Part shown: positions 1-57,358 of the stretch, piece by piece
How positions within the stretch are numbered: the stretch's first letter is position 1
Layout: every line of letters begins with the position of its first letter
Assembly (NCBI GenBank): GCA_028280575.1
Contig: JANQLN010000077.1
Span: 23,669-87,668 of the forward strand
Origin: Clostridia bacterium
GTDB lineage: Bacteria > Bacillota > Clostridia > Acetivibrionales > STF1-152
Direction of reading: 5' to 3'
Length of the DNA: 64,000 bases
Made by a program: the position numbers and the translations under genes
The notes under the pieces: model-generated
Database searches by the model: none
What the model saw: the letters and a program-made list of their open reading frames with translations, nothing else
What the model was told of the DNA's origin: nothing

Positions 1-448
1 CGGTAAGTGCCCCATCTCCAATTATAGATATAACAGAGTGGACCTCATTTTTAATATCCCTTGCCCTGGCCATTCCCAGTGCGGCTGAAATTGACGTACT
101 GCTGTGCCCCGTATTAAAACAATCATGACAGCTTTCATTGGTTTTGGGAAATCCCGACATCCCATCCAACTGCCTGAGACTGCAAAAATGATCCTTTCGG
201 CCGGTTATAATTTTATGTACATATGATTGATGACCCACATCCCACACAATCTTATCCCTGGGTGAATCAAAAACCCTGTGCAGAGCCAGTGACAATTCTA
301 CTACACCAAGGTTTGAAGCCAGATGTCCCCCTGTTTTTGATACATTATCTACTAAAAATTGCCTGACCTCATTTGAAAGTTGCTCAAGCTCATTATAACC
401 AAGCTTTTTCAGGTCCTCAGGACTGTTGATTGAACATAATAAATCCAA
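1..448 (-). CDS. dxs: 1-deoxy-D-xylulose-5-phosphate synthase, N-terminal part
   Basis: This is the first 149 codons of DXS, the TPP enzyme that joins pyruvate and glyceraldehyde 3-phosphate in the first step of the MEP isoprenoid pathway; the rest runs off the left edge. It is absent from the ORF track because the stop is outside the window. Translation gives the family N-terminus (SPEDLKKL), the GGHLASNLG segment, the substrate-side [12 protein letters not shown] stretch and the start of the TPP-binding IGDGALT motif. I chose a TTG start ([13 protein letters not shown]) because GAGAGG lies 7 nt upstream and no ATG fits. It follows oapA by 17 nt and ispA is upstream, so isoprenoid genes flank the OLE RNA. 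Confidence 0.95.
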
Positions 449-465
449 ATTTAGCCTCTCTCCTC

Positions 466-1053
466 CTACTTTTTCACATTATTTATTTTCCCAAGAAAAA
501 ACTCAAGTATTACACTTACCTTATAAATAATATAATTACTGTTTTTCAATGCAAATGATTTGCCTAACGCTTTCCCGCCTACTGTCAGCGAAGCAACCGC
601 ACCGCTCATAAGCAGGCCGAAAAGAACCGAGTCCGTAACGGTATTCATGCTTGCCACCTTTGTTACGATCAAAGCGCTTGCAGTTCCACTTATAACACCA
701 CATATATCGCCAACAACATCATTTGAAAAATTGGCTACCCTGTCTGCGTTCCTGATAAGAATTATGGATTGTTTCGCGCCATAACATTTTTTTGAAGCCA
801 TAGCATGAAAAGGGGTTTCTTCCGCCGCCGCAACAGCAATACCTATCATATCAAAAACAATACCTACGATTACTATAATGAGCACGACAATTATTGATAT
901 GATATAATTCACATTATCAAATATCGTTTTGGAAAGAAATAATAGTGCTGCGGATAGAATAAAAGAAACAATTGTAATAAAAACTACCCACATTTTATTA
1001 TCATTTTTTGATTTATATGAGTTTTGCCTGAATTTTATATTATTACCTTTCAA
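466..1053 (-). CDS. oapA: OLE RNA-associated membrane protein OapA
   Basis: A 195-residue integral membrane protein with about four hydrophobic segments (roughly residues 23-42, 50-75, 113-133 and 140-162) and a basic N-terminus. The segment [20 protein letters not shown] recalls the CNNM/CorB (DUF21) membrane domain, but no CBS domains follow. It carries a DxxxN motif (DRVAN, residues 104-108); a motif of this form is known as functionally important in OapA. Its place between the OLE RNA and dxs, with ispA upstream, matches the known ole-oapA arrangement. In the family, OapA binds OLE RNA at the membrane and is linked to cold, alcohol and Mg2+ stress. The start is TTG with GGAGG about 5 nt upstream. 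The identification rests on context plus sequence character; no database search was run. Confidence 0.85.
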
Positions 1054-1207
1054 GATTTCCTCCAGGCTTATATTTACTTACAGATTATTTACCTTTATAT
1101 AATGCTGTATTTTAAGCCTTACTCTATTATCCACCAGTATAAACCGTTTGTCAATCAACTATAACAGCGTTTTGCATCAAAACACACAAAAACCGCCGTT
1201 TTAACTA

Positions 1208-1254
1208 ACTATATGTAACGTCATAATTCTTGGAATTATGACGTTACATATAGT
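1208..1254. repeat. Perfect 22-bp inverted repeat between OLE RNA and oapA
   Basis: Arms 1208-1229 and 1233-1254 are perfect reverse complements around a 3-nt TTG loop (core ATGTAACGTCATAATTC). No U-tract follows on either strand, so it does not look like a classic intrinsic terminator. Degenerate relatives lie at 16164-16210 and 57280-57358. It would form a very stable hairpin at the 3' border of the OLE transcript and could mark or set its 3' end. Confidence 0.9.
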
Positions 1255-1255
1255 A

Positions 1256-1895
1256 CTTTGGTTTTCCAACTCTTTTTTAATATTAAGCGGTGGCAGTATA
1301 TTGAGTAAATTTTGCGGCTTAGGTCAGGGCGGATTTCCCCGAATTGTACTGAGATGTCGCCAAATCAGCGGTTTCCCTTTAAACAATCCGTCCATATGTT
1401 CCCATATTGGCAGCCTGATTACCACTTAGTCCACACTTCAATCCTCAATATACTTCAATCCGAACAGTCTAGGAGTTTTCCTCTACAGAGTGTCCTATTC
1501 CTAGCCTCTTTTGCAGTTAAGGTTTCAAACAGCAATAATATGCTTTTATCGGCCAATAAAACCATACCTGATCCGTTATCCACACGAAACCACTTCAAGG
1601 CAGGCTACGCTGTCCACAGCTTTTGTATACCGCAAAACAGGTTTAATCCCTTCTCGTGGTCATGCCACATTAAAAAAACTGGCTTTCTCCACAAGCAAGG
1701 GTCTCCACGGTAAAGGGGTCTACGCCTGCATGCCATTGCAGATCGCCCCTAAACCTTAACTCCCAGCATCAGCCCACAACTGGGCGTTGCAAGCCGACAC
1801 AAGGAACTTCATCGATGTGCCCTTTTACGGATTTTTAGGCCCGTCTTTGGAATAGGCATATCTGACTAGAATACTGCACCACCATTCTCTTAATA
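1256..1895 (-). ncRNA. ole: OLE (ornate, large, extremophilic) RNA
   Basis: About 640 nt without a credible ORF on the minus strand lie between ispA and oapA, the diagnostic position of OLE RNA; known examples are about 600 nt. The region is clearly richer in GC than the flanking intergenic DNA and reads as structured RNA. Visible helices include GCCCA-GTTG-TGGGC (1772-1785), CTGCA/TGCAG nested within GGGG/CCCC, ACGG/CCGT near the 5' end and GCCA/TGGC. Short plus-strand ORFs across it are shadows. In studied species OLE accumulates to very high levels and acts at the membrane with OapA. Both ends are estimates; the 3' side abuts a perfect palindrome. A covariance search against the Rfam OLE model would settle it. 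Confidence 0.88.
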
Positions 1896-2138
1896 CTCAA
1901 TCCCAAAATAAAATACCCCTTTATTTGGAATATGATTATAACATATATATATGCTTTAATAAAGATTATTAAACTCCCATATTTTCAATTAAAGCTGCAA
2001 ATTCCAGTATTATATCAAACTATCTTTTATATTCACATGCTAGTGCACCCTTGCGTAATTACGCATACACAGACTAAAGTATATTTTTCCGTATTTCTTA
2101 ATGGTCGCCGTCACTCTGCAAAAATCAAGGTACCGGCT
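1896..2138 (-). other. Intergenic region upstream of OLE RNA
   Basis: AT-rich gap between the ispA stop and the OLE 5' region. On the minus strand a TATAAT-like box (TTATAATCAT, about 1930-1937) lies some 35-40 nt before the start of the structured region and could be an OLE promoter -10, but no convincing -35 box is visible. A 12-bp palindrome, GCGTAATTACGC, lies at 2054-2065. I see no coding potential. Confidence 0.35.
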
Positions 2139-3038
2139 TTAATTGTTTCTATTTGCAAGGTATTTTGCAATTCCAATGAGAAATTCAGACTTTGTGCCAA
2201 ATATGGACAGTGAGTCAATGGCATTATTGGTAATTTCAAAAAGCATTTTTTTTGATTCTTCTGCTCCAAAAATCGTAACATACGTTGATTTACCGAGTTC
2301 TGCATCACTTCCCTGCGGTTTTCCCATAACTTCCAGGCTTGACTCAACATCCATTATATCATCCTTAATTTGAAAGGCCAATCCTATATTATCGGCATAA
2401 TCCCCAAGGGATTTTATCTGGTCCTGTGTAGCATCGCAAAGTATTGCAGGGGCTATGACAGATGCTCTTATCAAGGCACCTGTTTTACATTTATGCATGT
2501 ATTTTAAAGCATGAGGAGATAACTTTTTTCCTTCAGATTCAATATCTATTACCTGACCGGCAATCATTCCTTTTACTCCTGAAGACTGGGCGATTAATTG
2601 CATTGCATTTACTTTCTTTTTATAATCTTCCCTTGTTTGGGCAGATGATAACGTATATTTAAGCATACTCTCAAAAGCATGGTTTAAAAGCCCGTCACCT
2701 GCAAGAACAGCAACGGCATCTCCAAATACCTTGTGGTTGGTAGCCTTACCACGCCTAAAATCATCATTATCCATAGCGGGAAGGTCGTCATGAATCAGGG
2801 AATATGTATGTATAAGCTCAACAGCACATGCATATGGCAAAACAGGTCCAGGGGGGGAATCAAACAATTCCGCAACCGCTAAACCTAAAACAGGCCGGAG
2901 CCTTTTTCCTCCGGCTAAAATGCTATACCTCATTGCACTATATATTGTTTTTTCAAGCCCTTCGTTTTCTTGTATCTCATTATCCATGTAACTGTTTGCT
3001 AAATCTGCCAGTGATTGATATTTTTCTTTAAACTCCAT
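2139..3038 (-). CDS. ispA: Farnesyl/geranyl diphosphate synthase
   Basis: A 299-residue short-chain trans-prenyl diphosphate synthase that condenses isopentenyl diphosphate with allylic diphosphates to make FPP. It shows the substrate motifs GGKRLRPVL, the first aspartate-rich motif in DDLPAMDNDDFRRG (with the two-residue insert typical of bacterial FPP synthases) and the second motif FQIKDDIMD. Length is normal for the family. The start overlaps the end of xseB by 11 nt, so the two are translationally coupled. OLE RNA lies downstream. The order nusB-xseA-xseB-ispA-OLE-oapA-dxs resembles the known OLE-bearing operon but lacks folD. Confidence 0.95.
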   Translation of the reverse strand: MEFKEKYQSLADLANSYMDNEIQENEGLEKTIYSAMRYSILAGGKRLRPVLGLAVAELFDSPPGPVLPYACAVELIHTYSLIHDDLPAMDNDDFRRGKATNHKVFGDAVAVLAGDGLLNHAFESMLKYTLSSAQTREDYKKKVNAMQLIAQSSGVKGMIAGQVIDIESEGKKLSPHALKYMHKCKTGALIRASVIAPAILCDATQDQIKSLGDYADNIGLAFQIKDDIMDVESSLEVMGKPQGSDAELGKSTYVTIFGAEESKKMLFEITNNAIDSLSIFGTKSEFLIGIAKYLANRNN

Positions 3039-5250: not shown

Positions 5251-5820
5251 TTAAGTGCGGCTTATATAGTCTACCACAGGCTTTTGTGAATCCTGTGAAG
5301 ATATATTCTCCACAACTACCTTAACATCGCTCACCATAATGCCGGAACTGCTTTCAACGGCCTTTTTTACAACGGACTGCATCTCTTCGGAAAGTGCCGG
5401 TATGTTAACATCCGGCAAGACTTCCATCCTCACCGTAATCGACACATTCTGGTCCATCTTAAAAACGTTTGCTTTCGTCTCATGAATTCCCTTCACTTTC
5501 TTTGATGCTCTTAGCGCAATACTTTCAATTGATCCGAGCGATATTTTTATTTCACCTATATCAGTGTGTTTGCTGACAGCTCTTTTGTCTTTTCCAGATT
5601 TAAAACCGGACAATAAAAATACAATACTGAGTATGAAAAAAACCAGTGATATTAACATCATTATAATCCTTGTGGAATTATTCCCAAGAACATTTTGGTT
5701 TATATACAAGTAAATATCCGCCAGCAAGCTTTTCTCAAAGGTAATCAGCAAAGCTACTGCTGAAATAATCGCAAGGCAAAACGCATATATAGCCAAGAGT
5801 ATCCTAAAAACAATATTCAT
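5251..5820 (-). CDS. amaP: Alkaline shock response membrane anchor protein AmaP
   Basis: A 189-residue protein with two N-terminal transmembrane helices (FRILLAIYAFCLAIISAVALLI and IIMMLISLVFFILSIVFLL) followed by a cytoplasmic Asp23-like domain. In staphylococci AmaP tethers Asp23 to the membrane. The ATG at 5820 is preceded by a GGGAGAGGA SD. It is separated from the asp23-like gene by a strong terminator, so the two are probably expressed at different levels despite adjacency. Confidence 0.85.
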   Translation of the reverse strand: MNIVFRILLAIYAFCLAIISAVALLITFEKSLLADIYLYINQNVLGNNSTRIIMMLISLVFFILSIVFLLSGFKSGKDKRAVSKHTDIGEIKISLGSIESIALRASKKVKGIHETKANVFKMDQNVSITVRMEVLPDVNIPALSEEMQSVVKKAVESSSGIMVSDVKVVVENISSQDSQKPVVDYISRT

Positions 5821-5876
5821 ACAATCCTCTCCCACTTTTTAGAAAAGTTGTCCTAACATAATAATTATATTGCATA

Positions 5877-5948: not shown

Positions 5949-6398
5949 TTATTTTTCTTGCTGGATTTCATCTTCTTCTGGTATCTTCTTCTTTTCTTTT
6001 TCTATATTGACACCCTGTATATGTATATTTACTGCAGAAACTTCAAGTCCCGTCATATTTTCCACCGATTTTTTTACCTTTTCCTGGATACTCCATGCCA
6101 CCTCGGGAATGCGGCATCCGTAATCTACAATAATAAACAGGTCAATGCTTGCCTGTTTTTCATTTATCTCAACACGAACACCCTTTGAAAGGTTTTTTCT
6201 TCCAAGCATTTCGGATATGCCGCCCGCAAACCCTCCGCTCATACTTACTACCCCAGGTACTTCCATTGCGGCAATACCTGCAATTATAGCCACAACCTCA
6301 TCGGTAATCCTTATTGCTCCTATATCATTTACAACACCATTCTCATTTTCTCCCATAGTAAATTCAAACCTTTCATCATGATTGTTCGATAAATCCAA
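5949..6398 (-). CDS. Asp23/Gls24 family envelope stress protein
   Basis: A 149-residue Asp23 family protein: GAIRITDEVVAIIAGIAAMEVPGVVSMSGG, then RVEINEKQASIDLFIIVDYGCRIPEVAWSIQEKVKKSVENMTGLEVSAVNIHIQGV, the complete family core, with a charged tail. The family forms abundant membrane-associated filaments under alkaline or envelope stress, held by AmaP. No transmembrane segment. It lies between spoIIIAH and a strong terminator, so it ends a transcription unit. Confidence 0.9.
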   Translation of the reverse strand: MDLSNNHDERFEFTMGENENGVVNDIGAIRITDEVVAIIAGIAAMEVPGVVSMSGGFAGGISEMLGRKNLSKGVRVEINEKQASIDLFIIVDYGCRIPEVAWSIQEKVKKSVENMTGLEVSAVNIHIQGVNIEKEKKKIPEEDEIQQEK

Positions 6399-16163: not shown

Positions 16164-16210
16164 CTTATATGGAACGTCTTTATTTTTAGGAATATGGCGT
16201 TACATATAGG
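16164..16210. repeat. Degenerate palindromic repeat, copy 2
   Basis: TATATGGAACGTCTTTATT followed by GAATATGGCGTTACATATAG resembles the two arms of the perfect palindrome at 1208-1254 (TATATGTAACGTC and GACGTTACATATA). It lies in the aroE-prepilin peptidase gap, next to a small hairpin TTAGAGG/CCTCTAA (16144-16162). Confidence 0.65.
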
Positions 16211-57260: not shown

Positions 57261-57279
57261 TATCATATCCCCCAGCATT

Positions 57280-57358
57280 CTATATGGAACATCTTTAATT
57301 CTTGCGATACGGCCTATTTTAAATACACAAGAATTTTCTATTATGACGCTGCATATAT
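57280..57358. repeat. Degenerate palindromic repeat, copy 3
   Basis: CTATATGGAACATCTTTAATTCTTG and, after a 26-nt insert ending CAA, GAATTTTCTATTATGACGCTGCATATA. These correspond to the left and right arms of the perfect palindrome at 1208-1254, upstream of the first DUF881 gene. Confidence 0.65.

Follow-up and report, generated by a model that had tools for sequence, protein, structure and literature searches.

OLE RNA is a large membrane-associated bacterial RNA and, to our knowledge, among the largest with no known reaction. Thousands of OLE examples have already been published, and one further copy adds little alone; what is useful in the locus described here are corrected OLE boundaries, a directly testable candidate promoter and comparative evidence against an anti-Shine-Dalgarno mimic as a class-wide feature. 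Cryo-EM work has identified the A-rich P4 loop, the P5.1 GCCCA, the P6.1 UGGCAU and the P9.3 GGCC as contacts within an OLE dimer (PMC12286853, PMC12265935), the P5.1 loop being a kissing-loop partner and the P9.3 GGCC a symmetric kissing loop, the latter described in PMC12286853. The P6 helix of Halalkalibacterium halodurans carries CCUCCU, a perfect anti-Shine-Dalgarno match, and mutants M1-M3, in which this mimic was altered, kept bS21 binding (PMC12054373). In H. halodurans the cluster reportedly yields a single polycistronic transcript (PMC12265935), and OLE and the magnesium exporter MpfA have been reported to be anticorrelated (PMC11332333).

The window analyzed here is a 64-kb stretch of the draft genome of a Clostridia bacterium. 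A first-pass annotation had placed OLE RNA between ispA and oapA and had named a search with the OLE covariance model as its check, the lack of a match counting against it. This search returned a full-length match of minus strand 1274-1898 to the Rfam OLE family RF01071 (model positions 1-616 of 616, 525.8 bits, E 2.4e-151, cut-off 50), and no family besides OLE scored above its own cut-off in the Rfam scan of the 64-kb window. The sole addition in a permissive rescan was a match of 24.7 bits, against a cut-off of 90, between a neighboring palindrome and a microRNA family, which was dismissed as chance. The sequence features first noticed were also confirmed: the gap of about 1 kb without a minus-strand reading frame measures 1085 nt from the end of ispA at 2139 to the start of oapA at 1053 and contains no minus-strand ORF of at least 60 aa; the dense local helices correspond to a folding energy of -205.6 kcal/mol versus -178.0 +/- 6.5 kcal/mol for shuffles (z -4.3); and the raised GC content amounts to 45.0% in 1274-1898 versus 30.8% and 31.8% in the flanking spacers (1899-2138 and 1054-1273, respectively), with 37.8% for the window. 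The extent initially given, 1256-1895, lay close to that of the model, its 3' boundary having been stretched towards the palindrome, a separate dispersed repeat. The structured RNA is bounded by the closing helix P1 at about 1288-1884. Because the P7, P8, P9 and P13 model regions are all present, this OLE is of the full-length type and is not variant 1 or variant 2. It is single-copy in the genome (4.35 Mb, 143 contigs), and 37 of the 40 genomes searched, its own included, carry OLE.

The gene order at the locus is nusB-xseA-xseB-ispA-OLE-oapA-dxs, with the xse/isp cluster upstream and dxs downstream, and thus includes the ispA-OLE-oapA-dxs arrangement originally proposed; the terminal frame, which we take to be dxs, was assigned by recognition and not by a family search. 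A dxs-like ORF follows oapA in most relatives too. AmaP-like and Asp23 envelope-stress proteins are encoded upstream in the same cluster (5251-5835 and 5949-6398 of the window). No Pfam or NCBIfam model names OapA, and a PDB sequence search with this protein gave chance matches only. Its identification as the OLE partner was upheld by comparison: an OapA relative lies directly after OLE in the loci of 30/30 relatives, with 43-55% identity in the alignment, the closest among named relatives including those of Ruminiclostridium, Acetivibrio and Anaerobacterium, and the family resembles CNNM proteins. These named relatives place the source among the clostridia of their order. Specifically, 17 of 21 OapA family members weakly matched CNNM (DUF21), with a best E of 1.7e-6, the window protein itself not being matched. 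Four transmembrane helices are expected of OapA; the AlphaFold model of the window protein, of moderate confidence (mean pLDDT 76), is all-helical and has CNNM proteins as its best fold matches, headed by archaeal MtCorB (probability 1.00, E 0.029). As expected, this predicted likeness agrees with the published OapA-MpfA relationship. A promoter-like site also precedes oapA; the scan that lists it finds no more promoter-like sites overall than shuffles do, and this one is therefore weak.

Table 1. Positions of the OLE RNA, its structural elements and adjacent features in the 64-kb window.
Feature	Position	Strand	Remarks
dxs, 5' part	1..452	-	runs off window; reading frame
oapA, OLE-associated membrane protein A	466..1053	-	195 aa; TTG start; GGAGG ribosome-binding site
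Promoter-like site before oapA	1126..1154	-	TTGACA-17-GATAAT, 11 of 12; weak
Dispersed palindromic repeat, short form	1208..1254	.	22-bp perfect stem, 3-nt loop; outside OLE model
OLE RNA, full-length type	1274..1898	-	RF01071 match; pairing; two-sided pair changes
P1 3' strand, CCACCG	1288..1293	-	CCACC 1293-1289; pairs with 1879-1884
P9.3 loop, self-complementary GGCC	1549..1556	-	GGCC invariant in 30 sequences
P6, GGGGCGAU...GACCCCU	1714..1749	-	published bS21 site; four G-C pairs invariant 30/30
L6 loop within P6, AAUGGCAUG	1729-1737	-	
P5.1 loop, GCCCAG	1780..1785	-	invariant 30/30
A-rich P4 loop, CCUAAAAAUCC	1829..1839	-	hardly varies across 30 sequences
P1 5' strand, closing helix	1879..1884	-	GGUGG 1883-1879 plus U1884; pairs with 1288-1293
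Extended -10 element TGTTATAAT, proposed OLE promoter	1935..1943	-	-35-like TTTATT 1958-1963, spacer 17
Second extended -10 element, TGATATAAT	2009..2017	-	
ispA, farnesyl diphosphate synthase	2139..3038	-	NF045485, 348 bits, cut-off 275

The other known OLE partners are encoded elsewhere in the genome. The gene for OapB (L060, 2657-2938, minus strand, 93 aa) lies between map and infA in a ribosomal-protein operon, and its product has as its best PDB match 7k9b, "OLE-associated protein B" (E 4.7e-11). Matches to the KOW family were rejected as OapB, since they look like ribosomal protein L24, NusG and a pair of NusG-like frames; these two extra frames with KOW motifs (L056 and L057, contigs C132 and C55) include one that is apparently truncated. 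OapC/YbxF is encoded just before rpsL (L052, 1492-1740; PDB YbxF, E 3.9e-18), OapB and OapC both being common among OLE carriers and not universal, and a bS21 gene is present. No CNNM (MpfA-type) protein exceeded the Pfam cut-off in one family search of the draft assembly, which is 99% complete; this fits the published OLE-MpfA anticorrelation.

The secondary structure was examined by carrying over the Rfam pairing to an alignment of 30 order-level OLE sequences with a mean column identity of 77%, in which 89.4% of the cells form standard pairs. Two-sided changes occurred in 82 of 164 pairs, a number that none of 500 shuffles reached; column shuffling gave 46 and sliding the structure 24-46. 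Because these values come from related sequences and from a structure supplied by the family model, they support the fold and are no independent discovery of it. The closing helix P1 covaries, with 97.8% of cells paired and two-sided changes in three of its six pairs, including a G-C to A-U change in two relatives. Several Rfam pairs of P7, P9 and inner P6 (helices 4, 6 and 9) are unformed across the order, a result that agrees with how cryo-EM has revised P6 but is in part also due to the alignment. In addition to the conserved loops listed in Table 1, the P6.1 loop with UGGCAU is present in the window OLE. On the 3' side of P1, many relatives carry CCACCUGUUUUU, with ACAGGGUGG at the 5' end, so that a U-run comes after a long-range stem, an arrangement not seen in the window. 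At least five T occur in the 8 nt after P1 in 24/31 loci; such runs are to be expected where spacers are AT-rich, and P1 closes over a long range of 600 nt, so no terminator is claimed at this point.

The palindrome had been described as a 3' feature of OLE itself, which was not borne out. Its half-site occurs at 34 sites in its own genome at up to three mismatches (reversed control 0), and at 28 sites at up to one mismatch, versus 0 in 39 relatives, so that among the 40 genomes searched the repeat is private to this one. Most other copies are imperfect hairpins of about 100 bp (CTATATGTAACGTCATAATTC...GAATTAAAGACGTTTCATATAG), accompanied by short forms of about 46 bp and by tandem copies on contig C34; two further degenerate copies lie in the window near 16168-16206 and 57271-57355. 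In the nearest relative, a genome of the same family (L141), OLE is followed by a short spacer lacking the palindrome and then by oapA. We read the palindrome as a MITE-like dispersed repeat lodged between OLE and oapA, presumably mobile; neither a transposase nor a clear target duplication was identified for it. It could still slow 3' exonucleases.

Upstream of OLE, the motif TGNTATAAT was found within 250 nt on the OLE strand in 30/35 order-level loci, versus a mean of 0.75 and a maximum of 5 in shuffles, with 0 on the opposite strand and 4/31 on the downstream side. The wider Bacillota set had it in 42 of 68 loci, again with 0 on the opposite strand. Since the loci share ancestry, neither count is made up of independent cases, but distances and spacers differ between loci; some order-level genomes belong to both sets. 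In Bacilli the motif mostly lies 20-31 nt before the OLE RNA. It is a common promoter element, with 23 sites in the window versus 7 expected, and the claim made here is limited to OLE having its own promoter. The extended -10 motif points to a promoter dedicated to OLE across Bacillota and, in the window, likely places the OLE start near 1928 on the minus strand; at least part of OLE transcription would begin at this promoter, rather than all of it coming with the xseA-xseB-ispA cluster.

The bS21 site in P6 differs from that of H. halodurans. The window P6 reads GACCCCUUUACC, and the anti-Shine-Dalgarno mimic CCUCCU (also CCUCC) is absent from its 3' strand; a search of the assembly for the 3' end of the 16S rRNA, which carries the organism's own anti-Shine-Dalgarno, recovered nothing. 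Among order-level and wider loci, CCTCC occurred in 1 of 75 P6 regions. In the named loci, reduced from 80 to 75 rows and then to 70 by leaving out five mis-hits outside OLE (L069, L078, L083, L137 and L140), CCTCCT was found in 0/70 and CCTCC in 2/70, the two P6 sets overlapping and together covering about 100 RNAs. The mimic has been reported for H. halodurans only and is not required for OLE membership. Its near-lack, together with the invariant P6 G-C pairs, suggests that the conserved pairs and not mimicry matter, in agreement with mutants M1-M3. More broadly, we lean towards the view that OLE generally has a dedicated sigma-A promoter of the extended -10 type across Bacillota, which uncouples it from the cluster, and that anti-Shine-Dalgarno mimicry is peculiar to a few species, with the invariant P6 G-C pairs as the real bS21 determinant.

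As a whole, the locus is best explained as a full-length OLE RNA gene (probability about 0.93), for which sequence, structure, gene order and partner genes are in place; it is a genuine and typical example. A decaying, non-functional copy might be suspected from the 19 non-standard pairs among the 158 modeled in the window OLE (139 standard) and from its score of 525.8 bits, which is low within the range of 508-562 for intact full-length matches in the 40 genomes. However, most of these pairs lie in parts where relatives fail to pair as well (the P6 inner loop, P7 and P9), and neither the invariant loops nor the partner genes show damage, which makes decay very improbable. That the plus-strand frame at 1312-1713, open over 133 aa, is a real gene is hardly credible at all, since the region belongs to a known RNA family (RF01071) and covaries as minus-strand RNA helices in the 30 sequences.

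The remaining alternatives concern the ends of the full-length OLE RNA. Since its perfect 22-bp stem directly follows OLE on the 3' side, the palindrome might be taken to terminate OLE transcription or to be a functional element at the 3' end of the RNA; its many sites in this genome, their absence from relatives and the palindrome-free OLE-oapA spacer in L141 speak against this. On the OLE strand, moreover, no U-run follows it, and the terminator scan lists it for the plus strand only; we regard such a role as distinctly unlikely. At the 5' end, OLE sits in a same-strand gene cluster, and the polycistronic transcription reported in H. halodurans (PMC12265935) would allow it to be made solely by processing of the ispA operon transcript. 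The recurrence of the extended -10 motif in both sets of loci, its absence from the opposite strand and its rarity in shuffles make this origin rather doubtful.

For the full-length OLE RNA of the window, the H. halodurans and cryo-EM work, together with the loop conservation, suggests that the RNA would fold as a dimer through its P4, P5/P6 and P9.3 loops. By analogy, OapA dimers would hold it at the membrane, while OapC would bind it at a kink turn, OapB at P13 and bS21 at P6; it may act as a stress-response ribonucleoprotein. Its role may overlap that of the CNNM magnesium exporters, which are seemingly missing from the genome.

Compared with the OLE RF01071 examples of H. halodurans and Clostridium acetobutylicum, the window locus shares the full-length match, P1, the dimer loops, oapA directly downstream and the xseA/xseB/ispA and dxs neighbors, whereas P7 and P9 vary in length and sequence, P6 is without the anti-Shine-Dalgarno mimic and a private repeat separates OLE from oapA. 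It has the conserved core in common with OLE variant 1 and variant 2 of the TANB77 and RF39 clades (PMC11332333) but differs from them in keeping P7, P8, P9 and P13, and its genome keeps the OapB and OapC genes. The OapA family weakly resembles the CNNM/MpfA magnesium exporters in both sequence and fold, whereas OapA itself is a protein of 195 aa without CBS and CorC/HlyC domains that sits with an RNA.
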